Below are positions 35,000-55,686 of a stretch of 64,000 bases of DNA, in pieces. The DNA is taken from NCBI RefSeq assembly GCF_015354445.1, contig NZ_JADKYT010000001.1:248001-312000 (forward strand), written 5' to 3'. Within the stretch, counting starts at the first letter, position 1. Each line of letters opens with the position of its first letter. Under the pieces are notes generated by a model, which made no database searches, was not told the DNA's origin, and saw only the letters and a program-made list of their open reading frames with translations. The stretch is from Methylophilus sp. QUAN (GTDB taxonomy: Bacteria > Pseudomonadota > Gammaproteobacteria > Burkholderiales > Methylophilaceae). The position numbers were made by a program, and so were the translations under genes.

Positions 35000-36073
35000 T
35001 TGAGTCTGGGCTTTTTACAACGCAAAAAAACCAGTTTTATTGGTGTAGATGTCAGCGCAACCGCCATCAAAATGGTGGAACTGAGCGCCGTGGGCAAACA
35101 ACAATTCCGACTGGATGGCTACGCCAATGTGACCCTGCCTAAAGGGGTCATCAGTGATGGCAATATTAACGATTTAGCGCTGGTGGCTGACACCATGCGC
35201 TCAGCTTGGCGTTTACTCGGGTCGCGCGCGCGACAGGTGGTGCTGGCATTGCCAACTGCTGCGGTGATTTCCAAACGTGTGATCATGCCAGCTGGCATGC
35301 GTGACGAAGACCTGGAGTTGCAGGTGGAGTCAGAAGCCAATCAGTATATTCCTTTCCCGCTTGAAGAAATGAACCTCGATTTTCAGGTGCTGGGTCCTAT
35401 GGGCAAAAGCACAGATGAAGTTGAAGTGTTGATTGTGGCGGCCAAGAAAGAAAAAATTGATGACCGGGTTGCCGTGGCAGAGGAAGCTGGTCTGAAGGTG
35501 AGCATTATGGACGTGGATGCTTATGCCACCGAAACTGCCTATCGTCAGATTCTCAAACAGTTGCCGCAACACAGCAAAAAGACCGTCACCATGATTCTGG
35601 ATATCGGTGCGCATGTGACACATGTCAATGTCATGGTCGGTACACAGTCGATTTATGCACGGGAACAGGCCTTTGGTGGCGCCATGCTGTCGCAAGAGAT
35701 ACAGCGCCGCTTTGGCCTGTCGCCTGAAGAGAGTGAAATCGCCAAGCGTCAGGGCGGTTTGCCTGAGTCTTATGAGGCGGAGGTATTGCAACCTTTCCTG
35801 CAAAACCTGGCGGGTGAGGCGGCGCGTGCCGTCTCCTTTTTCACCAACTCTACCCAATATAACAAGGTCGACCATGTGTTGCTGGCCGGTGGCGTTTCAG
35901 CGACCGAAGGCCTGGCGCCATTGATAGAGCAGAAAACCGGTGTGCATACGCTGGTGGCCAATGCTTTCAAGGGGATGGCGCTGGCAAACAAGATCAAGTC
36001 TTCACAGCTTGAAACAGATGCGCCAGCACTGATGATTGCCTGTGGCCTCGCCCTGCGGGGAGTGGACGCATGA
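35000..36073 (+). CDS. pilM: Type IV pilus assembly protein PilM
   Basis: 357-residue actin-like cytoplasmic ATPase of the pilus inner-membrane platform. Family motifs: IGVDVSATAIKMVELS at the N-terminus (phosphate-1 loop), ILDIGAHVTHVNVM (phosphate-2), and VLLAGGVSATEGL (adenosine site). It starts with TTG at 35000, about ten bases after AAGG; no upstream ATG fits. It binds the N-terminal tail of PilN, whose gene overlaps it by four bases. Confidence 0.95.
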   Translation: MSLGFLQRKKTSFIGVDVSATAIKMVELSAVGKQQFRLDGYANVTLPKGVISDGNINDLALVADTMRSAWRLLGSRARQVVLALPTAAVISKRVIMPAGMRDEDLELQVESEANQYIPFPLEEMNLDFQVLGPMGKSTDEVEVLIVAAKKEKIDDRVAVAEEAGLKVSIMDVDAYATETAYRQILKQLPQHSKKTVTMILDIGAHVTHVNVMVGTQSIYAREQAFGGAMLSQEIQRRFGLSPEESEIAKRQGGLPESYEAEVLQPFLQNLAGEAARAVSFFTNSTQYNKVDHVLLAGGVSATEGLAPLIEQKTGVHTLVANAFKGMALANKIKSSQLETDAPALMIACGLALRGVDA

Positions 36074-36663
36074 TTAAAGTGAACCTGTTACCTCACCGTC
36101 AGATCAAGCGTGCTGAGCGCCAACGCGAGTTTGGGCTTATGGCGTCGCTGGTGGCCATTGCCGCTGCGGCCATCCTGTTTGTGAGTTGGAGCTATATTCA
36201 TAGCAAAATTGATGCGCAGCAGACACGTAACCAGCGCTTGCAAGATGAGATGGCGCGCCTGGACAAGGAAATTGCCATTATCAGTAATCTGAAAGAGCAG
36301 ATTAAACATGTGTTGGAGCGCAAGCAAATTGTCGAGGGCTTGCAGAGTGACCGTAACCAAGCAGTGTCGATTCTGGATGAGTTGGCCAGGCAGTTGCCAG
36401 AAGGTGTTTTTCTCAAAAGCGTCAAACAACTGGAGGATGAGATTGAACTCAAGGGGGTGGCTGACACCAATGCCAGGATTGCCACGCTGGTACATAATCT
36501 GGGGAGCTCGCCAATTATGCACAACCCTAACCTGGTTGAAATCAAGGCCAACACCAATGCACTCTCTGTTAAAGAGTATGAGTTTGTGTTGCGGGTGTAT
36601 TTAAAACGCGAAACTGCCAAAGAGGACCCCGCTAAACATAAGCCTGTCGGGGCCAAAGGATAA
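36070..36663 (+). CDS. pilN: Type IV pilus assembly protein PilN
   Basis: 197 residues. The conserved N-terminal tail MIKVNLLPHR that docks into PilM is perfect. A single membrane span follows at about 22-41, then a periplasmic coiled coil (MARLDKEIAIISNLKEQI) and a ferredoxin-like domain. It forms a heterodimer with PilO. Overlaps pilM by four bases and is separated from pilO by seven. Confidence 0.95.
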   Translation: MIKVNLLPHRQIKRAERQREFGLMASLVAIAAAAILFVSWSYIHSKIDAQQTRNQRLQDEMARLDKEIAIISNLKEQIKHVLERKQIVEGLQSDRNQAVSILDELARQLPEGVFLKSVKQLEDEIELKGVADTNARIATLVHNLGSSPIMHNPNLVEIKANTNALSVKEYEFVLRVYLKRETAKEDPAKHKPVGAKG

Positions 36664-36670
36664 GCGAGAA

Positions 36671-37315
36671 ATGCAACTTTCAGATTTTAATAATATTGAC
36701 TTAAAAACGGCCGGTAATTTACCGCTGCCGATGAAAGCCGTGTTGCTGGCCATTTTGGCTGGTGCATTGCTGGTATTGGGCTATGTGTTTTTGCTCAGCC
36801 CTAACCTGAAGGCATTGAAAGCCGAACAAGAAAAAGAGCAGGGCCTGCGTGACGAATACCTGGCTAAAAAAGTACAGGCAGTCAAAATTAAAGCCTATGA
36901 GCAACAGGTCGTTGATATCCAGCGCACCTTTGGCACCCTGCTCAAGCAGTTGCCGGACAAGTCTGAAATGGATGGCTTGCTGACCGATATTAACCAGGCT
37001 GGCTTGAGCCAAGGCTTATCGTTTGAAGGCTTTGTGCCGATGCCAGAAATTTTTGCCGATTTTTATGCCGAGAAGCCCATCAATATCAAGGTGTTGGGGC
37101 ATTACCACGAGCTGGGGGCTTTTGTGACAGAGGTGGCCAAGCTGTCACGTATCGTGACACTACACAATTTGCAGATACAGCCTGCCGGTAAAGAGGATAA
37201 GCAGCCACACAAGGATATGCTGGTGATGGAGGCTGTGGCGAAAACTTACCGTTACCTGGATGCAGAAGAGGTTGCTGCACGTAAGGCCCAGGAGAGTAAG
37301 GCAGGGAAGAAATGA
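36671..37315 (+). CDS. pilO: Type IV pilus assembly protein PilO
   Basis: 214 residues. A short cytoplasmic tail, one membrane span at about 19-38, a periplasmic coiled coil (LKALKAEQEKEQGLRDEYLAKK), then the PilO fold with the conserved GHYHELGAFVTEVAKLSRIVTLHN segment. With PilN and PilP it connects the cytoplasmic platform to the secretin. Overlaps pilP by four bases. Confidence 0.95.
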   Translation: MQLSDFNNIDLKTAGNLPLPMKAVLLAILAGALLVLGYVFLLSPNLKALKAEQEKEQGLRDEYLAKKVQAVKIKAYEQQVVDIQRTFGTLLKQLPDKSEMDGLLTDINQAGLSQGLSFEGFVPMPEIFADFYAEKPINIKVLGHYHELGAFVTEVAKLSRIVTLHNLQIQPAGKEDKQPHKDMLVMEAVAKTYRYLDAEEVAARKAQESKAGKK

Positions 37316-37842
37316 TGCGTAACCAGTACTTAATTGCCCTGATCCCAACGCTATTGCTGTCTGCATGCGGGTCATCACAAGATGACGATTTGACCCGCTT
37401 TATGGAAGAGGCAAGCCAGACCATGGGGGCACCGGTAGAGCCGTTGCCACAAGTGCAAGGGTTTGCCCCCAAGCAGTATAACGCGGATAGCACGCTGCAT
37501 GACCCGTTTGTGCCCCGCAAAGCGGCAGTGCAGAACACTAACCAGCCTGACCTGACGCGGCGCAAGGAGCCCTTGGAGGCTTATCCGCTAGAGAACCTCA
37601 AGTTTGTCGGCGTATTAAGCAAAAAGAACAGCATGTTTGCCACTATCCAGACCCCGGATAACCTGGTGTATCAGGTCAAACCTGGCTCGCACCTGGGGGA
37701 GAAGTTTGGCGTCATTACGGCACTGACAGAAAACCGTCAGACCTTGAAGTATGAATTAAAAATCAAAGAGACGATTCAAGACCCTGGGAGCGGTGAGTGG
37801 TCTGAGCAAATGACAACATTGGAACTGCAGGAACATCAATGA
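37312..37842 (+). CDS. pilP: Type IV pilus assembly lipoprotein PilP
   Basis: 176 residues. A lipoprotein signal with lipobox LSAC near residue 20 is followed by a disordered linker and the PilP beta-sandwich (LENLKFVGVLSKKNSMFATIQTPD), which contacts the N0 domain of PilQ. The conserved DPF motif of the linker is seen in HDPFVPRK. It overlaps pilO and pilQ by four bases each. Confidence 0.94.
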   Translation: MMRNQYLIALIPTLLLSACGSSQDDDLTRFMEEASQTMGAPVEPLPQVQGFAPKQYNADSTLHDPFVPRKAAVQNTNQPDLTRRKEPLEAYPLENLKFVGVLSKKNSMFATIQTPDNLVYQVKPGSHLGEKFGVITALTENRQTLKYELKIKETIQDPGSGEWSEQMTTLELQEHQ

Positions 37843-40106
37843 TGAAAAATTTAAGCTATTTTATGGCCAGGGTGGCATTCTTGTCTGTGGCGCTGGCGCT
37901 ACAGGGTGTTGGCATGGCGGCAGAGGTGTCCACGGCCAGTAACCAGTTGCAGGCGGTGGATGTCACAGCACAGCCAGGAGGGCGCCTGGATGTGCAACTG
38001 CAAATGTCGCAGCCATTGGCGGCGGCACCGGTCAGTTTCATCTTGAGTAATCCGCCCAGAATCGTGTTTGATATTCCCAATACCATCAACGCTACCGGTA
38101 AAAATGTGTTGCCGGTGAATCAGGGGGTATTGAAGTCAGTACAGGTTGCACAGGCGAGTGATCGCAGCCGTGTTGTATTAAATTTATCCAAGCCGGTCCA
38201 GCATCAATTACAGTTGCAGGAGCAAACCTTGCTGGTAGGCCTGACCCAAGAAGGCGCTGAGGTGCCTGTTGCGGCTGTGGCCGCCAAGCGCTTTTCTGAG
38301 CGGGAAGTGTCCGCTGGACACAAAATCCAGAAAATTGATTTTGTGCGCGGTAAAAATGGCGAAGGTCGCATTTTGGTAGACCTGTCTGATAGCCGTGTGG
38401 GGGTTAATGTACGCAATGCAGGCAAAACAGTGGTGATTGATTTTGCCGATACTGAGTTACCAGAAGCCTTGCAGCGTCGCCTGAATGTGATTAACTTTAA
38501 TACGCCTGTATTATATGTGGATGCTTTGCGGCATCACAATCAGGCACAAATCGTGATTGAGCCGCAAGGTGATTGGGAGCAGTCTGCATACCAGACTGAT
38601 AAGCGCCTGGTGGTCGATATCCGCCCATTGGCAAAGGACCCTAACAAACTCATTCAGGGCTCCAAGCAAGGCTATGCTGGTGAAAAATTGTCTCTGAACT
38701 TCCAGCGTGTAGATGTCAGGGATGTATTGAAAGTGATCGCTGACTTCACCGGTAAGAACATCGTCGTCAGTGATTCAGTGTCTGGTAGCGTAACCATCGG
38801 CCTGAAAGATGTGCCATGGGACCAGGCGCTGGATGTGATCATGAAAAGCAAGGGCTTGGACATGCGCGTCAACGGTAGTGTGATTTCGATCGCGCCAGCA
38901 GAGGAGTTTGCCGCCAAAGAGAAAGCGCAGCTCACTGCTGAGGCGGAGCGCGAGACGCTGGAAACCTTGCGTACAGAGGTGTTTTCATTGAAATACCAGA
39001 AGGCAGTGGACTTCAGGAATATGCTGCTTGGCGGCGGCACCAGTGGTGCAGGTGGCTCGACGTCTGGCACGTCTACCGGTTCGTTAGGTGGCGCATCGGC
39101 TGGCCGTATGAACCGCATTCTGTCGCAACGTGGTAGCGTGACATTTGATGCGCGCACCAATACGATTTTTGTGCAGGATACGCCAAGAAAACTGGAGGAA
39201 ATCCAGACTATCATCAACAAAGTGGATGTGCCTGTGAAGCAGGTCATGATCGAGTCACGTATGGTGATTGCTTCCAATACCTTCTCTAAAGCATTGGGTG
39301 CGCGATTTGGTATTTCGCAAACTGGCACGCCAGGAAGTAATAGTGCTTTGTCGATCGGTGGGTCGCTGGGCAATAAAACCACTGCAGTGAGTTCGACAGG
39401 CGGTTATACCATGGGTAACCAGGGGGGGACTGTACAGGCAGTCACGGGCCTAGACAAGATCACTGGTACAGGCCAAGTTGATCCAAATGCTTATTTGGTA
39501 AGTTCAAATGGTCAGCCTGATTTGATGTCCAACCTGCCAGTGACCAACGCTTATGGCGGCATTGCGCTGAGTTTGCTTAAGTTGTCGGCCAATTTATTGC
39601 TGAACCTTGAGTTATCCGCTTTGGAAGCAGATTCACGTGGTAAGGTGATTTCCAGTCCGCGCGTGACCACGGCCAACCAGCAGAAAGCGCGTATTGCGCA
39701 GGGGGTGGAGATTCCTTACCAAAGTGCCACCAGCAGTGGTGCAACTGCGGTCAGCTTTAAAAAAGCTGAGCTTAGTTTGGAGGTGACCCCGCAAATCACG
39801 CCAGACCAGAAAATTATTATGGATCTTGATGTACGCAAAGACAGTCGTGGTGAAACCTTGCCCGGTGGTGTGGCGATTAATACGCAAAACGTACAAACGC
39901 AGGTCCTCGTTGGCAACGGCGAGACAGTGGTACTGGGCGGGATTTACGAACAGGTTTCCCGCAAATCTACCGACAAAGTGCCTTTCTTTGGCGACTTGCC
40001 TGTGGTCGGTTATGCGTTTAAACGCAACACCAAGCAAGAAGATAAAACCGAGTTGCTGATTTTTATCACCCCTAAAGTGATGGATGAAACGCTGGCTTTG
40101 AACTAA
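37839..40106 (+). CDS. pilQ: Type IV pilus secretin PilQ
   Basis: 755 residues forming the outer-membrane gate of the type IVa pilus. Signal peptide at about 1-27; two AMIN peptidoglycan-binding domains (about 30-260); the secretin/TonB N0 domain (LNFQRVDVRDVLKVIADFTGKN near 285); an N1 domain interrupted by a Gly/Ser/Thr-rich linker (about 400-425); and the C-terminal secretin barrel ending VPFFGDLPVVGYAFKRN and ELLIFITPKVMDE. All parts match beta- and gammaproteobacterial PilQ. Last gene of pilMNOPQ. Confidence 0.96.
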   Translation: MMKNLSYFMARVAFLSVALALQGVGMAAEVSTASNQLQAVDVTAQPGGRLDVQLQMSQPLAAAPVSFILSNPPRIVFDIPNTINATGKNVLPVNQGVLKSVQVAQASDRSRVVLNLSKPVQHQLQLQEQTLLVGLTQEGAEVPVAAVAAKRFSEREVSAGHKIQKIDFVRGKNGEGRILVDLSDSRVGVNVRNAGKTVVIDFADTELPEALQRRLNVINFNTPVLYVDALRHHNQAQIVIEPQGDWEQSAYQTDKRLVVDIRPLAKDPNKLIQGSKQGYAGEKLSLNFQRVDVRDVLKVIADFTGKNIVVSDSVSGSVTIGLKDVPWDQALDVIMKSKGLDMRVNGSVISIAPAEEFAAKEKAQLTAEAERETLETLRTEVFSLKYQKAVDFRNMLLGGGTSGAGGSTSGTSTGSLGGASAGRMNRILSQRGSVTFDARTNTIFVQDTPRKLEEIQTIINKVDVPVKQVMIESRMVIASNTFSKALGARFGISQTGTPGSNSALSIGGSLGNKTTAVSSTGGYTMGNQGGTVQAVTGLDKITGTGQVDPNAYLVSSNGQPDLMSNLPVTNAYGGIALSLLKLSANLLLNLELSALEADSRGKVISSPRVTTANQQKARIAQGVEIPYQSATSSGATAVSFKKAELSLEVTPQITPDQKIIMDLDVRKDSRGETLPGGVAINTQNVQTQVLVGNGETVVLGGIYEQVSRKSTDKVPFFGDLPVVGYAFKRNTKQEDKTELLIFITPKVMDETLALN

Positions 40107-44504: not shown

Positions 44505-44512
44505 TCCGTCTT

Positions 44513-44589: not shown

Positions 44590-44629
44590 GTTTTCTCTGG
44601 ATTGCCTGATCGGCATGTAACTACTTTAT

Positions 44630-44706: not shown

Positions 44707-44720
44707 AAATCTTTCCCAGT

Positions 44721-44797
44721 GGTGGCTATAGCTCAGTTGGTAGAGCCCCGGATTGTGATTCCGGTTGTCGTGGGTTCGAGCCCCATTAGCCACCCCA
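44721..44797 (+). tRNA. tRNA-His (anticodon GTG)
   Basis: Acceptor GTGGCTA/TAGCCAC with the extra G at position -1 (44721) facing discriminator C, as required in tRNA-His; anticodon stem CCGGA/TCCGG with loop TTGTGAT (anticodon GTG); T-loop GTTCGAG; encoded CCA. Confidence 0.97.
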
Positions 44798-44910
44798 TTC
44801 TTATTTTCTCCTGTCTTAAATTCAAAAATAGTCACTAAAATTGGCTCTGTTTACCAATAGGTCAACGCCATGCTTTTGATAAAGTGTTCGAAAAAACAAT
44901 TGTCGCGAAC

Positions 44911-45918
44911 ATGAATACACCTTTGAATTTGAAAAAATTTATGCAAAGCCTGATTGACCTGACCAAGGTCAGGGAAAGCCTTGCACTCGATCCGGCGCTG
45001 CTATCATTAATGCAGCACTGGATGTCCGTGTTTGCGGCCCAGGCACAGCCGGTCAGGATGCAGGTGTTGTCCAAGCGGCAGCTTGTCTCGGTGATGGATA
45101 CTCAGGAGTCCAGTACTGACCCAACCTTTGAAGCCTGGCCGCCAGAAGTGTATACCATGCTATTGGGTTATTTGAATCAAGAGCATCGTCAGCATGCCTG
45201 TTTTGATACCGTCAGCGGTAAGCTGCATGTGTTCCCGCTCAAACAAAGTATCTCTCATAAAAATGCCATCCTGCTGATCCAGCACGAATCGCTCTCGGCT
45301 GAAGAGATTGACCTGGTAGAACAATGCTTGCAGATGTTCCAGCATTACGCCGGGTTGATTATTGAAAACGAACGCGATGCCTTAACCGGCCTGCTCAATC
45401 GCAAAACATTTGATCAATGCGTTGGCAAAATTCTGCTTAATGACTATAAGCCGGAATACAGATTCCCTTTGCACCACTACCTGGTAATCTTCGATATTGA
45501 TTTCTTCAAGAGAATTAACGATACCTACGGCCACTTGATTGGTGACGAGGTGCTGCTGCTGTTATCGCGTCTGATGCAAGAGGCTTTTCGGGATGGTGAC
45601 TTGCTGTTCCGTTTTGGCGGGGAGGAGTTTGTCGGCGTATTCTCTTGTGCCGAAGAGCATGACATCGTCGCATTGCTCGACCGGTTTAAAGAGGCGCTGG
45701 CAGCATATACATTCCCACAGGTAGGGAAAGTCACAATCAGTATCGGCTGCTCAAAAATGGCGCTGAATGTGTTGCCGAATACGGTGCTTGAGCACGCAGA
45801 TGAAGCTTTGTATTACGCCAAAGAGCACGGTAGAGATCAAATTTGCTACTATGAAACGCTGATTGCGCAAGGCCTGCTCACAGACAGTGTGATTACCGGC
45901 GAAATCGAATTGTTCTAA
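44911..45918 (+). CDS. Diguanylate cyclase (GGDEF domain)
   Basis: About 335 residues from the ATG at 44911 (MNTPLNLKKF); a GTG at 44884 is an alternative, and neither has a clear ribosome binding site. The N-terminal 150 residues have no membrane span and look GAF-like. The catalytic domain starts at DALTGLLNRKTFD and contains the active loop RFGGEEF. Five residues before it is RDGD, the R-x-x-D inhibitory site for product feedback. The enzyme should therefore make cyclic di-GMP. It lies just upstream of the pilus operon whose ATPase has a cyclic di-GMP-binding domain. Confidence 0.9.
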   Translation: MNTPLNLKKFMQSLIDLTKVRESLALDPALLSLMQHWMSVFAAQAQPVRMQVLSKRQLVSVMDTQESSTDPTFEAWPPEVYTMLLGYLNQEHRQHACFDTVSGKLHVFPLKQSISHKNAILLIQHESLSAEEIDLVEQCLQMFQHYAGLIIENERDALTGLLNRKTFDQCVGKILLNDYKPEYRFPLHHYLVIFDIDFFKRINDTYGHLIGDEVLLLLSRLMQEAFRDGDLLFRFGGEEFVGVFSCAEEHDIVALLDRFKEALAAYTFPQVGKVTISIGCSKMALNVLPNTVLEHADEALYYAKEHGRDQICYYETLIAQGLLTDSVITGEIELF

Positions 45919-46087: not shown

Positions 46088-48001
46088 ATGCGCTTCGCTA
46101 TCATCCTGCTTTGTGTTTGGCTTGCTGCATGCGTACGGCAGCCGCTGGATGCGTCTACTCACGCTGCATTACATTTGCCAGATATCAGCGTGTCAGAAAC
46201 GCCACCTGTAGCAACTTACCCTGAAGTCGATATCTCTGAAATTGAATCCGCCCGCATTATTAAGCCACCATTAAAGTCGGCCACCCCCACCTTACTCATT
46301 AACCTGGTCGTGCATGATGCGCCCGTTCAGGAGGTATTGCTGGCGATTGCGCGTGAAAGCGGGTTGAATCTTGATGTGCATCCAGGCTTGCGAGGCAAGG
46401 TGAGTTTGAATGCGATCCAGCAGTCAGTGCCGTCCATTCTGGCACGTATATCTAAGCAGTTGGATATGTACTACGAGTGGTCGAATGGCGTGTGGTTAAT
46501 TACGCCAGACATGCCTGTCATCCGTAGTTATAAATTGAATTACGTCAATATGAGTCGGGACACTACTGGCTATATCGGGGTCGCCAGTGAAATCAATAGC
46601 GCTGGCAGAGCTGCGACAGGTGCTGCAGGTAATGGTGGCGCGCAAGCCGTAGTGGCGCAGCAGGGCGGTAATAGTAATAGCTCAAGAACGGCTGTCACTT
46701 CACAATCGCGTTATCACTTGTGGGAAAGCATCGTTGAAAATATACAGACGTTGTTAGAGGAGACGGATAAGGCCAGTATCGCCCGTGACGAGGTATTGGA
46801 GAGCGCGGCATCAGGCCTGGACTTACCAGCACAAGCTAATGCCGCAGTCGAAAGCATGCAGGCCATCCGACAACCACGTGAAGCGTCAGATCAAGTATCG
46901 GGCAGTGCGCCTATTGCCTCTGAAAAAATCAAACAGGCGCATGTACGTTGGCATGCTTCGCGACTGATTGCCAATCCTGAAACCGGCATTTTGACGATCC
47001 GGGCATCGCAAAGCCAGCAGGCACAAGTCAGGTCGTATCTGGAGTCGGTGATGCAGGTCGCCGCCAGGCAAGTACTGATTGAAGCCACGATTGTAGAAGT
47101 TGAGCTGGGTAAAAGTTTTCAGATGGGCATAGACTGGAGCCGGTTGTCAGCCTCTGCGCAGCAGCGTGGATGGCAGTTGGCGCAATCGCTGGGCAGTGAT
47201 GCGGCACAGTTCAATCGCGCTGCAGGTACCTGGGAAAGTAATAACAGTAAGAATGCACTAGGCCAGAATAATGGCAGCGTGGCATTCATGCTCGGTTACT
47301 TTAATCCGCTTAGTCGCCTGGGTAATTTAAGCGCCAGCGTGACCTTGCTTGAGCAATTTGGCAAAACACGCGTGTTATCCAGCCCTAAATTAATGGTGCT
47401 CAATAATCAGACCGCGATTCTCAAGGTCGTCGATAACTTGGTGTATTTCACGATTCAGTCGCAAATTTCCCAAAGTAGCAGCAATAGCGGCAGCAACTTA
47501 CAGGCAGTCACCACGACTGCCAATACAGTCCCGGTAGGGCTGGTGATGGCCGTTACCGCACAAATTAACAGCCATCAGCGGGTGAATCTGAATGTACGCC
47601 CTACGGTGTCCAAGGTGTTGCGTTATATCGAAGACCCCAATCCGCAATTGGGCAGCGGCAGTACGCGGATCGTCAGCAGTATTCCTGAAATACAGGTGCG
47701 TGAAATGGAGTCTGTGCTGAATATTGCCAGTGGCAATATCGCTGTCTTGGGCGGCCTGATGCAGGAGGATCAACGCGAATTCACCGACCGCGTGCCTGGC
47801 GTATCCAGGTTGCCAGTGCTCGGGCAAGTGTTTACCGGCAAAAATCAGGCAGCGAGAAAGACGGAGTTGATTGTGTTTCTCAGGCCGACGGTCATCGGGC
47901 GAGCCGATGTGCGGTCTGGGGATTTGCAATCGTTTCAGCCATTATTGCCTGATGAGTTACCTGCCGATGCATTTGAAACCAATGTGGGGGAGCCATCATG
48001 A
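46088..48001 (+). CDS. mshL: Secretin lipoprotein, MshL-like (second type IV pilus/pseudopilus system)
   Basis: 637 residues. The lipobox LAAC at residue 15 marks a lipoprotein, unlike PilQ. The short secretin N-terminal domain is at about 70-130 (INLVVHDAPVQEVLLAIARESG), an Ala/Gly/Ser/Asn-rich linker at about 170-205, and the secretin barrel from about 325, ending in VPGVSRLPVLGQVF and ELIVFLRPTVIG. It lacks AMIN domains. This layout is that of MshL-type secretins of type IVb/MSHA pili. First gene of an eight-gene operon with overlapping ends. AACGGGGGA before the ATG is a good ribosome binding site. Confidence 0.85.
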   Translation: MRFAIILLCVWLAACVRQPLDASTHAALHLPDISVSETPPVATYPEVDISEIESARIIKPPLKSATPTLLINLVVHDAPVQEVLLAIARESGLNLDVHPGLRGKVSLNAIQQSVPSILARISKQLDMYYEWSNGVWLITPDMPVIRSYKLNYVNMSRDTTGYIGVASEINSAGRAATGAAGNGGAQAVVAQQGGNSNSSRTAVTSQSRYHLWESIVENIQTLLEETDKASIARDEVLESAASGLDLPAQANAAVESMQAIRQPREASDQVSGSAPIASEKIKQAHVRWHASRLIANPETGILTIRASQSQQAQVRSYLESVMQVAARQVLIEATIVEVELGKSFQMGIDWSRLSASAQQRGWQLAQSLGSDAAQFNRAAGTWESNNSKNALGQNNGSVAFMLGYFNPLSRLGNLSASVTLLEQFGKTRVLSSPKLMVLNNQTAILKVVDNLVYFTIQSQISQSSSNSGSNLQAVTTTANTVPVGLVMAVTAQINSHQRVNLNVRPTVSKVLRYIEDPNPQLGSGSTRIVSSIPEIQVREMESVLNIASGNIAVLGGLMQEDQREFTDRVPGVSRLPVLGQVFTGKNQAARKTELIVFLRPTVIGRADVRSGDLQSFQPLLPDELPADAFETNVGEPS

Positions 48002-48714
48002 ATCAAGCCTTTCATCGTTACATGAGGTCGCTGGTTTCGTGGCGGGTGCCAAGACGCGCAGCCCTGGACGCTTACCGCAACGCATTGATACACACTGGCC
48101 TTAAACGCATTGAGGTGGGATTAAGTTACTTGTCATGGGCTTGTGTGGTGTTGATGAGTGGCCTGGTCTGGCCAGCGGGCTATCACTTCTGGTTTGGTGG
48201 TGACGATGGCCTGGCCGGAAAAAGACCTGCTGGCTTGAGTCAGTCTGTCAGCGGGTTTAACCCACCCCAAGTCCCCGTGTTGGCAAAGGTCGCTCTATCC
48301 AATCAATTGCCCAGCCTGTTTAGATTTAAACCCGTGGGCGCACATTCTCCTGTGGCCGCCAGCCTTCCAGCACTTGAGGCTCAGATGGTGCATCCAACAG
48401 CAAAGCCTGTCGCACAACCACTGCATCTGGCGTTGCATATTCAAACGCTGCCGCAATTACACGCCAGCCTAAAACCAGCACTCAATATAGCGGTACAACA
48501 ACTGCTTTCAGGCCAATTGGCGCAGGCGAGTGACTCGTTTGAGCGGGTGTTGCAGCAAGATCCGCATCAAGTGATTGCCCTGGCGGGCATGCTCGTTGTC
48601 ACCAGTCAGCGCGGTGAGATTCAGCAGCGTGAAGACTACTTAAGCAGAATCCGTAGTGAGATTCCGGATTATGCGCCCGATGACGACCTGTTTTTAATGC
48701 AGTTGGAGGAGTGA
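47998..48714 (+). CDS. Bitopic TPR-like protein (MshN-like) of the second pilus system
   Basis: 238 residues. A basic cytoplasmic N-terminus, one membrane span at about 40-64, a Pro/Ala-rich periplasmic linker, and a C-terminal helical segment (about 160-210, LNIAVQQLLSGQLAQASDSFERVLQQDP) with tetratricopeptide character. Position between the secretin and the motor ATPase and the topology match MshN, but sequence similarity is weak, so the symbol is withheld. Overlaps the secretin gene by four bases. Confidence 0.7.
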   Translation: MNQAFHRYMRSLVSWRVPRRAALDAYRNALIHTGLKRIEVGLSYLSWACVVLMSGLVWPAGYHFWFGGDDGLAGKRPAGLSQSVSGFNPPQVPVLAKVALSNQLPSLFRFKPVGAHSPVAASLPALEAQMVHPTAKPVAQPLHLALHIQTLPQLHASLKPALNIAVQQLLSGQLAQASDSFERVLQQDPHQVIALAGMLVVTSQRGEIQQREDYLSRIRSEIPDYAPDDDLFLMQLEE

Positions 48715-48716
48715 GC

Positions 48717-50441
48717 ATGTTGGCCGCCGCAGACAAAACCCGTCTTGGAGAGTGGATGTTGGCAAAAGGCATGATTACCGCAGATCAACTGGAGATCGCT
48801 TTAATTGAGCAACAAAAACACCAGCTTCTGTTAGGGCAGCAGTTAGTCAGACTGCATTTTGTCACAGACGCCATGATCCGGGATGTGTTGGCGCAGCATC
48901 ACGCGCAGGAAAGCATTGACTTACAGCAGGTGATTGTGGATCCCGAAGCGCTGGCGCTAGTGCCGGAAGCTTTTGCCCGCCAGCATAAATTGTTACCGCT
49001 GGATTTATCCGCAGACAAGCAGGTCATGCGTGTGGCCCTGTCTGGCCACAATCATATGCTGGTGTTAGATGCGCTGCGGCATATGTTGGGCGGCAGCATA
49101 CAGCTTAAATCGGTATTGGCAACCGAAGCACATTTGGAGCAGGCGCTGGATAAGTGTTATGGGCATAGCTTGTTGCTGGACAGTCTCTTGCGTGAAATTG
49201 AGCAGGAAGGTAACGCGCCAGCCTCGCTCGCCGCGCAGCAGGCATCCCGGCCAGTGATCAGGCTGGTCAATGCCGTGTTGATTGATGCAGTCAAACAAGG
49301 CGCGTCGGATATCCATTTTGAGCCTGAACATGCTTTTCTGAGGATACGTTACCGAATCGATGGTGTGTTGTGGCAGATTCGCTGCTTGCATGACCGCTAT
49401 TGGCCTGCCATGTGTGTACGGTTAAAAATATTGGCGGGGATGGATATTGCCGAGCAGCGCACGCCACAGGATGGCCGGGTCAATATGTTTTTATGTGGGC
49501 GGCAAATTGATTTCAGGGTGTCCAGCCACCCGACATTGCATGGTGAAAATCTTGTATTGCGGGTATTGGACCGCGACAAGGCAATTATCCCGCTGGCGTC
49601 CATGGGGTTACGCGCGCCACAATTGCTGCGTGTCAAAAATATGCTGGAAAAGCCGGAAGGCTTGCTGATTTTAACGGGCCCGACGGGCAGCGGGAAAACG
49701 ACCACTTTGTACTCCATGCTGGGGTACCTTAATCATGAGCACGTCAATATCATGACGCTGGAAGACCCGGTCGAGTATCCCCATTCGCTCATGCGGCAGA
49801 CCTCGGTCAATGCGGCAAACAAAGTCGATTTCATTAATGGTATCCGGGCCATTTTACGGCAGGATCCTGACATCATCCTGATCGGCGAAGTCCGCGATGA
49901 GTCTACCGCGGCTATGGCCGTGAGGGCGGCAATGACTGGCCATTTGGTGATGACTACCTTGCATACTAATAGTGCAACCGCTGCTTTTTCGCGGCTGCAA
50001 GATCTGGGGGTCAGCCCGCATATGATGGCGGGTTGTCTGGTGGGGGTGATTGCGCAACGCTTGCTAAGACGTTTATGCCGTCACTGCAAGCGCCAAATGG
50101 TGGCTGATCGTGCGCTGGAGCAGTTGTTACGCCACACTTGCGCGCCAGCACAGACCTGGTCAAGGCCAGTGTTTGAGGCAGAAGGGTGCGTGCATTGCCG
50201 TATGAGTGGATATCACGGCAGGTTGGTCATTATGGAGGTGCTGACCATGCACGCCGAGATGCATGCCATGCTGGCGCAACCCATGGCCATGTCGCAAATA
50301 CAGCAACAGGCGCGGCTGCATGGCTATACAACGCTGGCTGAAGAGGGGCTGCAACTGGTCAACGCGGGAGAGACCAGTGTGCAGGAACTGCGCCGGGTTG
50401 TCGATTTAAGTGCGCTTGAGACTGGGGTGGCTAGTCCATGA
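48717..50441 (+). CDS. mshE: Pilus extension ATPase MshE-like, with cyclic di-GMP-binding N-domain
   Basis: 574 residues of the GspE/PilB ATPase family. The N-terminus carries the MshEN cyclic di-GMP signature: RLGEWMLAKGMITADQLEIA followed by LIEQ (R-L-G-x2-L-x3-G-x-I ... L-x2-Q), with a second half LLGQQLVRLHFVTDAMIRDV about 20 residues later. Then Walker A GPTGSGKTTT, Asp box MTLEDPVEYP, Walker B ILIGEVRDE, His box TTLHTNSA, and a four-cysteine zinc site (CRHCKR ... CVHCRM). The ATG at 48717 follows GGAGGAG. It powers assembly of the filament, probably on cyclic di-GMP binding. Confidence 0.9.
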   Translation: MLAAADKTRLGEWMLAKGMITADQLEIALIEQQKHQLLLGQQLVRLHFVTDAMIRDVLAQHHAQESIDLQQVIVDPEALALVPEAFARQHKLLPLDLSADKQVMRVALSGHNHMLVLDALRHMLGGSIQLKSVLATEAHLEQALDKCYGHSLLLDSLLREIEQEGNAPASLAAQQASRPVIRLVNAVLIDAVKQGASDIHFEPEHAFLRIRYRIDGVLWQIRCLHDRYWPAMCVRLKILAGMDIAEQRTPQDGRVNMFLCGRQIDFRVSSHPTLHGENLVLRVLDRDKAIIPLASMGLRAPQLLRVKNMLEKPEGLLILTGPTGSGKTTTLYSMLGYLNHEHVNIMTLEDPVEYPHSLMRQTSVNAANKVDFINGIRAILRQDPDIILIGEVRDESTAAMAVRAAMTGHLVMTTLHTNSATAAFSRLQDLGVSPHMMAGCLVGVIAQRLLRRLCRHCKRQMVADRALEQLLRHTCAPAQTWSRPVFEAEGCVHCRMSGYHGRLVIMEVLTMHAEMHAMLAQPMAMSQIQQQARLHGYTTLAEEGLQLVNAGETSVQELRRVVDLSALETGVASP

Positions 50442-51637
50442 CCAGTTATCGCTATATTGCCATCGACCAATATGGCCAACGGCACCGTGGGGTGCTGGAG
50501 ATGCCCAATGAGCAGATGCTCACGGCGAGTTTGCAGCAACAGGGCCTGGAGTTGCTGACTTTCAGGATGGGCCAGCCATGGTTTTGGCGGCAACCCAGGG
50601 TCAATACGCAGACGCTGATTTTATTTTGTGTGCAAATGGAGCAATTACTGCAAGCAGGAGTGCCGTTGTTGCAGGCGCTTGCCGATCTTGATGAGCAAAA
50701 CGAACATCAAGGCATGAAGGCGGCATTGCGCAACGTACAACGTGATCTTGAAGCTGGCAAGTTATTGTCGCAAGCGTTGCAAGCGCAACCCAAAATCTTT
50801 CCGCCTTTGCTGGGTCAGCTGATTGATGCGGGTGAGCGTACTGGCCAGTTACCCGAGATTTTCGGGCATTTGACACGTACATTATCGTGGCAGGCCGAGC
50901 TGCGGTCACAGGTCCGTCGTGGGCTGACTTACCCGGCGGTGTTGTGTGTCATGGTGGCAATTGCTGCCTATGTCATGTTGACTTTTCTGGTGCCGCAAAT
51001 GGCCAGTTTTTTACAAAGCCTGGGCCAGGCACTGCCTTGGTCTACCCGTTTATTGCTGGCACTGTCTGACGGAGTGATGGCTTATGGTGGATGGTTGTTG
51101 CTAGGCATCATCGCCATGGTGACTGTATTCACGCTGGCGATACGCCGTTCACCGGTCTTTGCCTTTTTTCTGGACCAACAGCTGTTGCGGTTACCGGTGG
51201 TTGGGCGGTTGGTGCATCAACTGGTGTTGGCCAGGCTTTGTCGCTTTCTTGGCTTGATGTATCAGACGGGAATCCCTTTATTACAAGCCTTGGCCTGGTG
51301 CCAGCCCTTGTTGCAACAGCGCGTCATGGAGCAGGCGCTGGCTGAGGTCTATCAGCGCGTTCAGGCCGGGGAAAGCCTGACTGCAGGGTTTGCCGCCACC
51401 CAGCAGTTCCCGCCCCTGATGTTGCGTATGTTGAGTGTCGGTGAAACAACGGGTGCGCTAGATCGCATGTTATTCCAGCTGGCAATGGTTTATGACCGGG
51501 AGGTGCAGTCACAACTGCAGATGTTATTGCGGTTGCTTGAGCCTGCACTCACCATCGCACTGGGCATGATGTTGTTGTTTTTAATGGCCGCAGTGATGTT
51601 GCCGGTGTATGACAGCTTTTCAAGCCTGCGCTATTAA
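50438..51637 (+). CDS. mshG: Inner-membrane platform protein, GspF/PilC/MshG family
   Basis: 399 residues with two copies of the GspF domain (about 65-190 and 265-390), each starting with a helical cytoplasmic region (FCVQMEQLLQAGVPLLQAL; LARLCRFLGLMYQTGIPLLQAL) and three membrane spans in total. It is the rotor or platform that the ATPase acts on. The two domains also contain the conserved GERTGQLPEIF and GETTGALDRML motifs. Overlaps mshE by four bases. Confidence 0.92.
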   Translation: MTSYRYIAIDQYGQRHRGVLEMPNEQMLTASLQQQGLELLTFRMGQPWFWRQPRVNTQTLILFCVQMEQLLQAGVPLLQALADLDEQNEHQGMKAALRNVQRDLEAGKLLSQALQAQPKIFPPLLGQLIDAGERTGQLPEIFGHLTRTLSWQAELRSQVRRGLTYPAVLCVMVAIAAYVMLTFLVPQMASFLQSLGQALPWSTRLLLALSDGVMAYGGWLLLGIIAMVTVFTLAIRRSPVFAFFLDQQLLRLPVVGRLVHQLVLARLCRFLGLMYQTGIPLLQALAWCQPLLQQRVMEQALAEVYQRVQAGESLTAGFAATQQFPPLMLRMLSVGETTGALDRMLFQLAMVYDREVQSQLQMLLRLLEPALTIALGMMLLFLMAAVMLPVYDSFSSLRY

Positions 51638-51639
51638 AT

Positions 51640-53145
51640 ATGGCAAGCCATCATTTCATTGTCCTGGTCGATCAAACGTGCTGGCGTGTGGTGCATGTGC
51701 GCGGTCAGCAAGCGTTAGCCATGCGCACGTTTGAGTGTGACGATAGTAGTCGCCAGGAAATCTTGCGTTGGTGGCAACAGTTTCCGCAGGCAAGAGTCTC
51801 GTTCCTGGCCAATCATGCGGATGAACATTATCACGTGGAAACCTTGCCGCAGGTGCGTGGGTCGGCCGGGCGCCAGTTGTTACTGCGTAAGCTGGCAGCA
51901 TGGCCTTTTTCGCAAGGCATGCATGCGGTTTGTCGTTTGGGCCATGTGAAAACATTACGCCGGGAGAGCCGCTTCCTATTCGTGGCACTCACTTATCCAA
52001 CCCTGGTTCACTGGCTGTCGGTGTTGCAAGCACAGTCTATTCGCGTCCAGGGGGTATACACACAAGCCCTGTGCCTGGTTTGCTGGCTACCCGCGACACT
52101 GCAAGTGATGCGCGGGTTGTGTGTGCAATATATGGCACAACAAGTCCGTATCAGTTATATCTACCAGCAGCGCTTATTCTTTAGCCGCCTGATTTCGTTG
52201 CCGTCAGATACGCTTTCTACGCCAGAGGATTTTGTGAATCGGATTGTGTATGAGGTGGCGCAAATACGTATGACTTTAATTCACCAGCATTGGCTACAAG
52301 AGGCAGATGTATTATCGCTTGTCTGGCTGGGCCAGGTGCCTGTAGATCTGCCATTGTTAAAAGCGCAGTTGCCTGCTGGGTGTATATGGGCTGAGGACTC
52401 AGGGGTGGCGGGACATTTCAGTGGCAGCGACTTGCCATCGGGGCTGCATGCCATGGAATGGGCGGCGATACAGCCTATATTAAAGGGTCGGCCGTTACCT
52501 AATCTGGCCCCTGAGGCTGTGTTGTTGCTGGATAGCAGCGCGCGTATAAAGCGTCACTTGCATTGGGCAGGGGCAACGATGGTTTGTTTGATGATCCTGA
52601 TCTGCTGGGTCAGCATGCAGGCTACCCACCAGGCGCAGGTGCAAATGCAGCAGGTGAAGCGCCAGCTACAAGTTGGGCGGCGTACACCCGCTGTGCATAT
52701 CAATCAGGCACAGTTGTCAGGCATGCGCGCATTGACGCAAGCAGTGCAAGGGTTACAGGCTTCCGTGCGATTGCCAGAGCGTGCCTTGGCCCTGATGCAG
52801 CAGGCGTTAACGGGCATCTCTCACTGGCAGGTAGCCGCACTGGCGTGGGATTTTTCAGAGAGATCTTCGCAGGCTGATGCCGTCACTCAGCATCCCTCTC
52901 GTTGGCGGGAAACGCTCACTGTGACATGGTCGCAGGGTGGTCTTAGCGAACAGGCGGCGATGGAATGGCAGCAATTGCTCACGCGATTACGAGGGTTGCC
53001 TGAGATCGAAAAAGTAGAGCTGCTCACGCCTTCAGCATCCGCAAGCAGCGCTCAGCGGCAAGGCAATACAGGTCAGGCGCCAGCGCCGGATCACCCACCC
53101 GTGCTTAAGCTATATCTGCGGGATGTGAATGAGGCGGCCACCTGA
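51640..53145 (+). CDS. PilM/PilN-like fusion protein (GspL- or MshI-like) of the second pilus system
   Basis: 501 residues in three parts: a cytoplasmic region (1-303) that occupies the position of PilM/GspL-cyto but lacks recognisable actin-type nucleotide motifs, one membrane span (about 307-327, GATMVCLMILICWVSM), and a periplasmic helical then globular region like PilN (328-501). One polypeptide thus seems to replace the PilM-PilN pair, as GspL does in type II secretion. Assignment rests on topology and gene position. It begins two bases after the mshG stop. Confidence 0.65.
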   Translation: MASHHFIVLVDQTCWRVVHVRGQQALAMRTFECDDSSRQEILRWWQQFPQARVSFLANHADEHYHVETLPQVRGSAGRQLLLRKLAAWPFSQGMHAVCRLGHVKTLRRESRFLFVALTYPTLVHWLSVLQAQSIRVQGVYTQALCLVCWLPATLQVMRGLCVQYMAQQVRISYIYQQRLFFSRLISLPSDTLSTPEDFVNRIVYEVAQIRMTLIHQHWLQEADVLSLVWLGQVPVDLPLLKAQLPAGCIWAEDSGVAGHFSGSDLPSGLHAMEWAAIQPILKGRPLPNLAPEAVLLLDSSARIKRHLHWAGATMVCLMILICWVSMQATHQAQVQMQQVKRQLQVGRRTPAVHINQAQLSGMRALTQAVQGLQASVRLPERALALMQQALTGISHWQVAALAWDFSERSSQADAVTQHPSRWRETLTVTWSQGGLSEQAAMEWQQLLTRLRGLPEIEKVELLTPSASASSAQRQGNTGQAPAPDHPPVLKLYLRDVNEAAT

Positions 53146-53765
53146 TGAAAGCCACTGCTTACCGGCCAGTGTTACGCGCGACTTTGATCAGTTGGCTGGT
53201 CGTACTATGCCTGCTTGTCGCTGTGATGGCCATCACATTAAATGACCAACGGGTTGCTGAAGATGGCTTGAGTCAGGCCAGACGTCAATGGCGGCAACAG
53301 CAGCAGCAAACAGAGCTTGAAGCTAGTTATCAGCCTGATATGCATTACTTTCTTGCGCATCGTATCGGTTGGCAAGCCCATGGCTTAATGCAGTCGCCGG
53401 ATTTCGATCGTTGGGATGGCGATTTGGTCTCCATGCAGCAACGGTTTACCTTGCCACATGTTGCTTATGAAATTGCACCGACGGTGTCGTGTCCGGCAGA
53501 TGCCTGTCGGGTGCAATGGCCGACCAGCCAGCCGCCGACCTTGAATTTCACGGTGACGTCCATACAACTGCGTTGGTCAGTGCCTCATGAGTCTGCTGTC
53601 ATAGATTGGTTGCAGCAGCTTGAGCATGCATATGGCGGATTGTTGCTGGTGCGTCGTTGCAGTTGGATATTGGCGGAAGGCGCCGAAATGATCGCTGCGC
53701 AATGCGATCTGGACCTGTTTAATTTTCCTCATGTGTTGCCCGCTGAGCTGATAGGCGCGCAATGA
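53145..53765 (+). CDS. PilO/GspM/MshJ-like bitopic protein
   Basis: 206 residues. Short cytoplasmic tail, a membrane span at about 13-32 (TLISWLVVLCLLVAVMAI), a Gln/Arg-rich coiled coil (about 42-60), and a periplasmic globular domain with two pairs of Cys (CPADAC; CSWILA...C). Topology and location after the PilM/N-like fusion fit a PilO or MshJ role in the alignment complex. The sequence itself is divergent. Overlaps neighbours by one and four bases. Confidence 0.62.
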   Translation: MKATAYRPVLRATLISWLVVLCLLVAVMAITLNDQRVAEDGLSQARRQWRQQQQQTELEASYQPDMHYFLAHRIGWQAHGLMQSPDFDRWDGDLVSMQQRFTLPHVAYEIAPTVSCPADACRVQWPTSQPPTLNFTVTSIQLRWSVPHESAVIDWLQQLEHAYGGLLLVRRCSWILAEGAEMIAAQCDLDLFNFPHVLPAELIGAQ

Positions 53766-54961
53766 TAAGGTCTGCCCATGTTGCTCGAGGAGTGCAAACC
53801 GGTGTCGCTATCTGGATGGTGTTGCTGTTGTTGTCTGGCATGGGTACATGGATGCTATATAAAGTACCTGGAAGTTATCCTGCCCGGCAGCGAGCGATGC
53901 AACAAACAATCGCAGCATTGGCGATGGCGCAGCAAGCCTTATTGTCTTATGCACAGCAGTCTTTGGGGACGACTCCGTGTGAATTGAATTGTCCGCGACC
54001 TGGTGATTTGCCCTGCCCGGACCGCAATAATGATGGCATTGCTGAAACCTCATGTAGCAATACCTCACGTATGGGGCGGCTGCCGTGGAAAACACTGGGG
54101 GTGGGCGATGTGCGCGATGGCAGTGGCGAGCGCTTATGGTATGCCGTCTCCGAGCGCTACAAAAACAATCCGCGCCTGCGACCCTTAAATCTGGATACGG
54201 CAGGCACATGGAGTGTGGTTTCGTCAGGAGGTGTGGTGTGGGATGCGACACAAGGCAATGGGGTGGTTGCCGTGTTAATTGCGCCCATGCAGCCGCTCAC
54301 GCGGGAGGATGGCTGGGTACAGCAACGTATAGACGCGACCAGTGAGGTAGCAAAGCATTACCTGGATATACAGGGGGCTACCGATAATGCCAATCCGCAG
54401 GAAAACGCAGCACGTAGCTTTGTCAGTACATCATCCAGCATACATTTCAACGATGTTGTCTGGCCAATCACCACCAGTCAAATGCATCAGGTCATGCAAA
54501 AACAAGTGCTGGCAGAGGTGAGGCGCAGCCTGCGCTGTGTTGCGTTATCTTGCCTTAGTTACCCGCCGCCCGCCGCCGTTGGCGATAGTAGTTGTTTGGG
54601 CAACCAAGCCTTGAGTGCCGGACAATGCTTTTCTGCGGCGGTCAGTATCGGCCGCTTACCGCTCGATGCGAACGCGCACTGGCCATGGGCGACACAGCAT
54701 GTGCTGGACGGTAACCCACAACATCATTGGTTTCAGCAGAATGCATGGCGCGAACAAGTGTTTTACCTGCCAGGTCAAACGCAGGCCAGTATTATCCTGG
54801 CGGGTGAGCGCTTGGCCGGGCAGATCCGTGACAGTGCTACGGATAAACTGCATCTGAACGCCTATCTTGAGGCATCCACCTTGCTTGCGCTGCATGTGCA
54901 AGATGCCTCTGTGCTTAATCTGCCGAGCAATGACTTGCAGGATAAGGCGAGTCGGCCATGA
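53762..54961 (+). CDS. Large pseudopilin-like protein with LPCPD/LPW motif (PilX/MshP-like N-terminus)
   Basis: 399 residues. The N-terminal hydrophobic helix (about 11-33, GVAIWMVLLLLSGMGTWML) resembles PilX-type minor pilins and has no Glu at position 5. Next comes GDLPCPDRNNDGIAE (about 81-95), a DxNxDG calcium-loop-like sequence, then RLPWKTLGVGDVRDGSGERLWYAVS. The same LPCPD and LPW pattern returns in the next gene, so the two are distant paralogues. Eight or more cysteines suggest a rigid exported domain. Possibly the tip or cargo-binding subunit. Overlaps both neighbours by four bases. Confidence 0.6.
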   Translation: MIRSAHVARGVQTGVAIWMVLLLLSGMGTWMLYKVPGSYPARQRAMQQTIAALAMAQQALLSYAQQSLGTTPCELNCPRPGDLPCPDRNNDGIAETSCSNTSRMGRLPWKTLGVGDVRDGSGERLWYAVSERYKNNPRLRPLNLDTAGTWSVVSSGGVVWDATQGNGVVAVLIAPMQPLTREDGWVQQRIDATSEVAKHYLDIQGATDNANPQENAARSFVSTSSSIHFNDVVWPITTSQMHQVMQKQVLAEVRRSLRCVALSCLSYPPPAAVGDSSCLGNQALSAGQCFSAAVSIGRLPLDANAHWPWATQHVLDGNPQHHWFQQNAWREQVFYLPGQTQASIILAGERLAGQIRDSATDKLHLNAYLEASTLLALHVQDASVLNLPSNDLQDKASRP

Positions 54962-55686
54962 ATCTGGCGCCGCAAACTCGCCCAATTTGCCTCAGGTCCG
55001 TCATTTCTGGGTTTAGCTTGCTAGAAATGGCGCTGGCATTGGTGATTTTAAGTTTGATGATGGGCTGGCTGATGACGCCATTGCGTGTGCAGCAAGCCTT
55101 GCAAAAATATCAGCAAACAGAGCAACGGCTTTATGCAGCACAGCAGGCATTGCTTGGCCACGCGATTATTTATCATTACTTGCCCTGCCCGGATACCGAC
55201 CAACCGCCAGATGGCTTGGAAAATGTATCGGCAAACCAAAGTTGTGTAGGGGATGAAGGTGTGCTGCCATGGCTACAACTAGGCCTGGTGGCGACCGATG
55301 CCTGGGGACGTTTTTTGCGCTACCGTGCTGATAGTACCTTTACGCACCACGCACAATGGTTCTCTGTGTCCGCGGCCGAGAATGCCAGCAATATTCAAGT
55401 GGTGGGGGACGCCGGAGCGTTAATCAGTGCGCCCAGCCGCCCCGCAGCTATTATCCTTTCGCATGGCGAAAACGGGCTGGGTGGCATACAATCGGTGTCT
55501 GGCGGGCAAGCCTTTGTGATGACTGCCCCTGTGCATGTAGATGAGCAGGAAAATGTTGATGGCGACCTGGTTTTTGTCGATAAAGCCCAGCAGCAGGCGG
55601 GTGGTGCGGTGTTTGATGACCGCTTGGTCATGTTGTCGCCCAAAGTGTTAATTCAGCAAATGGTGCAGGCGCAGCGCCTGCCTTGA
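54958..55686 (+). CDS. Prepilin-like protein with LPCPD/LPW motif
   Basis: 242 residues with a class III prepilin signal: SGFSLLEMALALVILSLMM (cleavage after Gly19 or so, Phe1, Glu5). The globular part carries YLPCPDTDQPPDG and GVLPWLQLGLVATDAWGRFLRYR, matching the pattern of the preceding gene. It is much longer than a major pilin and is the only protein of this operon with a canonical prepilin signal. The substrate of the system or the filament core remains open. Last pilus gene; moeB follows after 15 bases. Confidence 0.72.
   Translation: MNLAPQTRPICLRSVISGFSLLEMALALVILSLMMGWLMTPLRVQQALQKYQQTEQRLYAAQQALLGHAIIYHYLPCPDTDQPPDGLENVSANQSCVGDEGVLPWLQLGLVATDAWGRFLRYRADSTFTHHAQWFSVSAAENASNIQVVGDAGALISAPSRPAAIILSHGENGLGGIQSVSGGQAFVMTAPVHVDEQENVDGDLVFVDKAQQQAGGAVFDDRLVMLSPKVLIQQMVQAQRLP

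Follow-up and report, generated by a model that had tools for sequence, protein, structure and literature searches.

A probable unnamed type IV filament family behind an eight-gene secretin, ATPase and platform operon of Methylophilus sp. QUAN

The 64,000-nucleotide stretch of Methylophilus sp. QUAN analysed here (the window; contig C1:248001-312000 of a 3.15 Mb genome) contains, at 46088-55686, a compact cluster of envelope genes, and the question is what kind of machine they encode. A previous sequence-only reading had described eight genes there. The open reading frames (ORFs) confirm this: all eight lie on the + strand, in the order D-N-E-F-MN-O-P1-P2, with either 1-4 shared bases or a gap of 2 bases between adjacent genes (Table 1). 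The operon is real and intact. As that reading also stated, the cluster itself holds no small pilin, no retraction ATPase, no prepilin peptidase and no PilP/MshK-like gene; mshM and the K gene described below are absent from it too. In our view these genes fairly likely specify the envelope machine of a separate, apparently unnamed family of type IV filaments that is akin to the mannose-sensitive haemagglutinin (MSHA) pilus and to type IVa pili (T4aP), with an unlinked major pilin of 213 amino acids (aa) and with P1 and P2 as tip pilins.

Domain scans recognised D, E, F and P2, and the other four genes had no family over cut-off. D, which has a lipobox LAAC (by eye), scored 116.7 bits on the Pfam Secretin model (cut-off 27.5); its nearest NCBIfam model was MshL (TIGR02519; 239.1 bits, under the cut-off of 250.2), which 9 of the 10 relatives' secretins scanned did pass. 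E scored 408.6 bits on T2SSE, 49.7 on MshEN (cut-off 23.1) and 52.7 on the cyclic di-GMP (c-di-GMP) motif model NF053729 (cut-off 38). The secretin, MshE-type ATPase and GspF-type platform of the sequence-only reading were thus borne out by Pfam and NCBIfam. P2 reached 20.1 bits on N_methyl in the protein domain scan (cut-off 21.2) and 23.5 bits, over the cut-off, in the genome-wide scan. O and P1 gave no match in the domain scan and MN a single chance-like one, under cut-off; by eye, MN consists of about 300 aa, one membrane segment, a coil and a periplasmic part. At the place of N, many relatives have a protein of 310-610 aa and some (e.g. L141, L143 and L162) no gene. The components of the type IV filament superfamily are therefore present (ATPase, platform, class III pilins and secretin), the peptidase and the probable major pilin being unlinked.

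Table 1. The eight genes of the cluster and two neighbouring features (window positions)
Feature	Position	Strand	Description
D	46088..48001	+	Lipoprotein secretin, MshL-like; PF00263
N	47998..48714	+	238 aa, bitopic, C-terminus resembling tetratricopeptide repeats (TPR); TPR models under cut-off only
E	48711..50441	+	Assembly ATPase, N-terminal MshEN domain (c-di-GMP type)
F	50438..51637	+	Inner-membrane platform, GspF/PilC/MshG family; T2SSF PF00482, 165.6 bits
MN	51640..53145	+	501 aa; place and layout after the platform, GspL-like
O	53145..53765	+	Bitopic, at the PilO/GspM place; assigned by size, order and one membrane segment
P1	53762..54961	+	Two pilin-like domains in tandem after a single N-terminal membrane helix; carries LPCPD, lacks Glu5
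P2	54958..55686	+	Apparent minor pilin; GFSLLEMALALV class III signal, LPCPD globular domain
GGDEF gene	44884..45918	+	PF00990, 111.3 bits; just upstream of D; putative association only
PilMNOPQ (T4aP) operon	35000..40106	+	6 kb upstream, not part of this system; PilQ 512.1 bits (cut-off 284.35)

The locus is not a one-off but recurs in other members of the order and, beyond it, of the Gammaproteobacteria as GTDB defines that class. Of 200 genomes from the order, 99, including our own, had a match to P1. Relatives of P1 are encoded on 536 contig stretches, the best 80 of which were used for locus counts; gene presence was scored by BLAST, and absent means not found at that threshold. Among these 80, the nearest named P1 relatives were from Methylophilus strains (Methylophilus sp. 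14, 94% in the best segment), and the carriers included Methylophilus methylotrophus ATCC 53528 (L130) and Gallionellaceae. Of 78 loci, 75 had P2 together with P1, and the complete set of D, E, F, MN, P1 and P2 could be seen in 43 of the 80, of which many lie on short contigs. From these loci and larger regions of 20 genomes, the full gene order in relatives was D-N-E-F-MN-O-K-P1-P2, with O often placed by position only. In the class, a P1 profile (which also catches P2-like proteins) matched in 79 of 369 sampled genomes, and machine genes lay near P1 in 14 of 15 loci picked from this sample, L225 and L226 being very diverged. The exception, L223 (genome G252), has three consecutive LPCPD proteins and no recognised machine genes adjoining. 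Loci L077, L078, L079, L080 and L082 repeat L141, L162, L173, L168 and L186; the repeats remain in the 98-ATPase set, the 57-locus secretin set and the ATPase tree, and were removed from the 52-locus mshM count.

The position of these window-type loci was assessed with a tree of E and F together (50 loci, 960 columns). Twenty window-type loci formed one clade with an ultrafast bootstrap (UFBoot) of 100, as did 19 MSHA loci and, separately, four PilB/PilC loci (UFBoot 100 each); L290 and L291, whose GspE passes the cut-off (705.4 and 673.3 bits), and five loci resembling the type II secretion system (T2SS) also stood apart from the window clade. An E+F tree with 37 window-type and 8 MSHA loci agreed with a separate clade, and in a tree of the ATPases alone the window clade had a FastTree support of 0.996 with L225 and L226 and of 0.904 without them. 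On these sequences the window loci group separately from the MSHA, T4aP and T2SS loci sampled, type IVb pili (T4bP) not being placed. The 50-locus tree leaves out the MSHA rows L284, L287, L289, L305 and L311 and 17 window-type rows of the 37+8 tree, which also holds the first three of these MSHA rows. The MSHA loci were typed by likeness to the strain's own MshE/MshG, with 14 of the 19 coming from the class sample and no named Vibrio sequence among them. The tree group T2SS (L032, L033, L293-L295) is to be read as T2SS-like, true GspE scores belonging to the rows T4x_L290 and T4x_L291, which leaves the window clade unmoved; the comparison with true GspE is one with two loci, and that with the T4bP/Tad side is one with a single own IVb-like ATPase, the outgroup of the ATPase tree.

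One could suppose that the cluster is an ordinary MSHA pilus, merely rearranged, and that its separate clade is a sampling artefact. The gene set of the relatives (mshM-, mshL-, mshE- and mshG-like genes, a TPR gene, three alignment genes and pilins) mirrors that of MSHA, with a MshL-like secretin, a TPR-type gene, a MshEN ATPase and a platform in the shared order L-N-E-G, a mshM-like gene in many window-type relatives, and secretins that mostly pass the MshL model. In a secretin tree of 57 loci, which included no PilQ, window-type and MSHA secretins joined (0.992) against T2SS-type secretins; its row W_L217 is the secretin of an adjacent MSHA locus. Lacking a linked peptidase is normal for MSHA loci, and the text of a 2019 survey of the superfamily names none that has one (PMC6668835); its MSH search model also allows mshA as a loner. 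MSH-like clusters with significant gene rearrangement have moreover been described in Sideroxydans ES-1 and Gallionella ES-2 (PMC3770913); these may be window-type systems, since Gallionellaceae are among the carriers.

We nevertheless regard this explanation as improbable. The MSHA clade excludes the window clade (UFBoot 100), and the two systems coexist in our genome and, in the class sample, in 32 of the 78 genomes positive for P1. They stand in tandem in genome G279 (C1:80000-110900; L217, L299), where a window-type locus with pilin is directly followed by an MSHA-type locus, whose secretin passes MshL (272.5 bits). In our strain the MSHA locus (L031) lies at C1:571.7-586.6 kb, about 270 kb from the cluster, and contains MshL (over its cut-off), E, G and a MshM-like gene, together with pilins, PilM/N/O-like and K-like genes and a large Q-like protein; labels other than MshL come from ORF reading and order, and the stretch ends before any MshN. 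The gene order of MSHA is mshIJKLMNEGFBACDOPQ. In the window-type cluster the alignment genes come after the platform, MN is one protein, and the only pilins are the two LPCPD ones, one of them double; the mshA-D/O/P/Q block, present in L031 by ORF reading, is absent. The cluster is not the strain's MSHA pilus, because the same genome holds this separate locus and other systems. We propose that it works like an MSHA-type pilus and do not file it as MSHA, because its ATPase and platform fall outside the MSHA clade and it lacks that pilin block. Comparison of relatives, which the sequence-only reading had called for, thus gave a conserved block, often with a pilin behind it, outside the MSHA clade of the E+F trees.

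The second machine is also distinct from T4aP, as that reading had held from the full PilMNOPQ system nearby, which we see as well. E scored 487.7 bits on the PilB model, for which the strain's own PilB scored 809.1 (cut-off 675.65), and it falls outside the PilB/PilC clade; the secretin is MshL-like rather than PilQ, and no PilMNOP was recognised by sequence. Core parts are shared with T4aP, and probably PilD and PilT/PilU are in common. Genome-wide we found 8 secretin and 14 T2SSE-type ATPase matches, which amount to about eight filament or filament-like systems (contigs C1, C2 and C3; L009-L035). Two places combine ATPase, secretin and peptidase matches, as in Tad loci, and L035 is a IVb-like locus. 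Elsewhere in the genome there are three Peptidase_A24 genes (one of 290 aa at C1:932993) and two ATPases of the PilT/PilU family that pass their cut-off. At L034:9087-10913 (C3:277734) a TfpB-type ATPase passes its cut-off (879.3 versus 850 bits), and the ORF list shows no platform or pilin gene beside it.

The alignment proteins are a further difference. Comparison of MN, O and K with PilM/N/O/P, MshI/J/K and GspL/M/C by hhalign, PDB profiles and Pfam revealed no sequence relation, and nothing above a probability of 20 was obtained by hhalign against the alignment proteins of the strain's own MSHA and T4aP systems. The best PDB and Pfam matches of MN and O look like chance (for O, MJ0480 in the PDB, E 0.021, and DUF4381 in Pfam, in 1 of 19 members, E 2e-4), and those of K in the PDB were designed Ig proteins (E 2.6e-4 and 0.0021), from which we draw no meaning. 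The earlier labels PilM/PilN-like and PilO-like therefore hold for size, order and the single membrane segment, but not for sequence homology by these methods.

P1 and P2, the two LPCPD proteins, both look like pilin subunits. The predicted model of P2 (pLDDT 86.6) had five matches with Z >= 2 in VIA-align, all pilins or pseudopilins: the type IVb pilus of enterotoxigenic Escherichia coli (ETEC; Z 5.8), EpsG (5.4), PilA1 (5.1) and two Pseudomonas pilins (3.7 and 3.6). In an NCBIfam scan P2 weakly matched the N-termini of GspG and GspH, and when our genome was searched with P2, only weak pseudopilin-like matches appeared besides P2 itself. P2 looks like an ordinary minor pilin. The AlphaFold2 model of P1 (pLDDT 87.7) shows a single membrane helix at the N-terminus and two domains, of which the first (residues 37-237) resembles the ETEC pilin (Z 4.2) and the second (240-399) the pilin-like TTHA1219 (Z 3.1); all four chains with Z >= 2 were pilins or pseudopilins. 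VIA-align was restricted to Foldseek's candidates, so that the absence of GspK from this list is no evidence against a GspK likeness. The two halves of P1 matched each other by hhalign (probability 97.8, E 1.2e-12) and each matched P2 (99.7 and 96.0); among the MSHA minor pilins the single match of P1 was mshP, at a probability of 22. With P1 rows selected by LPCPD, and P2 and pilin rows by the class III motif, a crude pattern found Gly before the apolar stretch in 59 of 72 P1 rows and Glu at +5 in none. P1 thus looks like an internally duplicated two-domain pilin without Glu5, the duplication being shown by profile comparison and the pilin folds being predicted ones, and it is probably a tip protein. 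PCPDx[ND]xDG, present in 51 of 72 P1 sequences, is possibly a calcium loop. P1 recalls modular pilins such as PilB of Streptococcus sanguinis, in which a pilin module carries an added C-terminal module, probably at the tip (PMC8179133); unlike those, its extra module is a diverged copy of the pilin globular domain. We found no description of such a tandem-pilin-domain architecture in the literature searched, much of it available in part, with preprints and most subscription journals outside its scope.

Many relatives encode, shortly after P2, a pilin of 200-280 aa (GFTLVEIAIVLVIIGLLLGG, then KGQELI and PGD). It stands right behind P2 in L080, L217, L226, L227 and L230, and near P2 in 16 of the 65 P2-bearing loci outside the Methylophilus clade by a one-query BLAST, a low count because flanks end at 10 kb or sooner. 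The search elsewhere in the genome that the sequence-only reading had suggested disclosed one such protein of 213 aa in our strain. Its gene, at C1:466270, is flanked by one for cytochrome c assembly and by one for an ABC ATPase, which we take to be mlaF-like. The pilin family was present in 118 of 200 genomes of the order: with P1 in 96 and alone in 22, P1 alone occurring in 3 and neither in 79. The P1 profile recovered P1 in 15 of the 22 pilin-only genomes, to which this re-search was confined. Among the matches listed, 58 of 90 genomes had the pilin <= 15 kb from P1; where it seems unlinked, a contig break may in some cases be the cause. In the family to which Methylophilus belongs it was unlinked yet beside the mlaF-like gene in all five genomes having it. 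Because of its co-occurrence with P1, its proximity in relatives and its kept place in the strain's own family, the 213-aa protein is probably the major pilin of this machine. Arrays of this pilin family were seen in genome G118 (at least 5 matches on C73 and at least 4 on C12) and also in G157:C135.

These findings bear on two further explanations. The sequence-only reading had inferred a reduced hybrid of T4bP and T2SS that lacks a major pilin and perhaps serves to export or display the LPCPD proteins themselves. A cluster without pilin gene, peptidase and retraction ATPase would suit such a device. We now hold it to be very unlikely: a pilin of the family linked in many relatives, a peptidase and PilT/PilU genes are present at unlinked places, the supposed cargo is pilin-like, and E and F form a separate clade (T4bP not placed). 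The other is T2SS-style secretion, in which the pilin family would form a short periplasmic pseudopilus, P1 a GspK-like cap and folded proteins would be exported. GspK lacks Glu5, as P1 does; the layout of MN resembles that of GspL by eye, and P2 has the EpsG and GspG/GspH likenesses given above. This too is unlikely, in our opinion. E, F and D scored 480, 317 and 167 bits on T2SS models, under the cut-offs of 630, 424 and 351, their clade is apart from L290, L291 and the T2SS-like loci, the nearest secretin model is MshL, and a pilin of 200-280 aa is larger than GspG. The failing models are in themselves weak evidence, since the strain's own T2SS-like loci L032 and L033 fail GspE too (489.5 and 509.4 bits; cut-off 630.25) and their secretins have no NCBIfam match, GspD included, at E <= 1e-60. 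L032 and L033 form a clade of their own with loci from other genomes.

The word reduced was partly right. In most relatives the two LPCPD genes are preceded by K, a small gene for a periplasmic protein of 74-221 aa (50 rows), which has a signal peptide and carries the motifs RLF and TVWING. Outside the Methylophilus clade K was found in 48 of the 49 loci in which MN and P1 are present; within the clade it was found in 0 of 10, and O overlaps P1 there among the loci listed. K was not found elsewhere in our genome either (best E 0.42), and on this comparison Methylophilus has lost it. Similarly, a mshM-like AAA gene (Pfam AAA_22 in L087) was present in 30 of 52 distinct loci with >= 1300 bases before D, that is, in 0 of 9 Methylophilus-clade loci versus 30 of 43 others; it lay <= 250 bases from D in 30 of 32 rows among the matches listed. 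The reduction thus concerns K and the mshM-like gene, not the pilin. These losses, the shortened N and the occurrence of P1 in two frames in L133, a contig of a metagenome-assembled genome, might suggest a locus decaying in Methylophilus. This appears extremely unlikely: all eight genes are open in 9 of 10 Methylophilus-clade loci (with N assigned by position in L135 and L136, and with L133 on a truncated contig), E is 60-99% identical among them, and the Walker motifs of the window's E are intact by eye. In L133 the two P1 frames overlap, which could be an assembly error.

We thus return to a type IV filament machine, which could work as follows. Binding of c-di-GMP to the MshEN domain would open E, which would drive F to polymerise the 213-aa pilin through D. 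Alignment of the inner with the outer parts would fall to MN and O, joined in most relatives by K, and N would help the secretin. P2 and double-domain P1 would, as minor pilins, start the filament and sit at its tip, with the second pilin-type domain of P1 turned outward as a head for binding. The machine would borrow PilD and PilT/PilU from other systems; in Vibrio cholerae, MSHA retraction uses PilT, shared with another pilus (PMC7096442). By analogy, the role may be surface attachment, which is a guess.

Several observations weigh against this proposal. The c-di-GMP motif is unsteady: as RLGxx[LM] occurs in only 43 of 98 window-type ATPases, control by c-di-GMP, which we infer for Methylophilus from the motif score of E and the GGDEF gene upstream of D, is doubtful for the family; a stricter pattern matched 0 of 98 and is uninformative, the window's own E being unmatched as well. 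The sister group of the window clade has a UFBoot of only 59. The fold Z-scores are low (at best 4.2 for P1 and 5.8 for P2), and Foldseek against the PDB gave no match at E <= 0.001 for either protein. The pilin lies 164 kb from the cluster in this genome, where, with 20 N_methyl matches, another one may serve it instead. Seven genomes have the pilin and no P1 even by profile, 3 of 200 have P1 and no pilin match in a single search, and the Fisher p of 4e-31 for their co-occurrence ignores kinship. Finally, without K and the mshM-like gene the machine may function less well in Methylophilus.

Around the operon, an ORF of 343-356 aa, recognised by size and place only, precedes D in 7 of 10 Methylophilus-clade loci, at the position of the GGDEF gene. 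Upstream of that gene, three tRNA genes (Pro, Arg and His) occupy window positions 43572-44797; an opposite-strand frame that spans the first and enters the second is probably spurious. At 13218-20478, minor pilin genes looking like FimT, PilV and PilW precede a gene whose 1369-aa product contains a PilY1 domain (PF05567, 106.2 bits), which fits T4aP.

In the literature searched we found no name for this filament family (PMC6668835, PMC3770913, PMC3728764, PMC8179133, PMC10734482 and PMC7096442, each in its available part, included; preprints and most subscription journals outside its scope). The 2019 survey places MSH in Gamma- and Epsilonproteobacteria and Chrysiogenetes, and suggests that only a few families combining ATPase, platform and pilin are still to be discovered (PMC6668835). 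The window loci, marked by the P1 profile, sit outside MSHA, T4aP and T2SS as sampled, and in the scans made the secretin (MshL) is the only window-type part that reaches a specific NCBI pilus model. There is a fair case for an unnamed family. More tentatively, this may be an unrecognised family of type IV pili that ranks with MSHA and T4aP and is widespread in Gammaproteobacteria (GTDB); it would have an alignment complex of its own and a tip of LPCPD pilins, one of them two-headed through internal duplication of the pilin domain. The loci allow a genetic test, in methylotrophs, of which machine uses which pilin where several filament systems share a cell.

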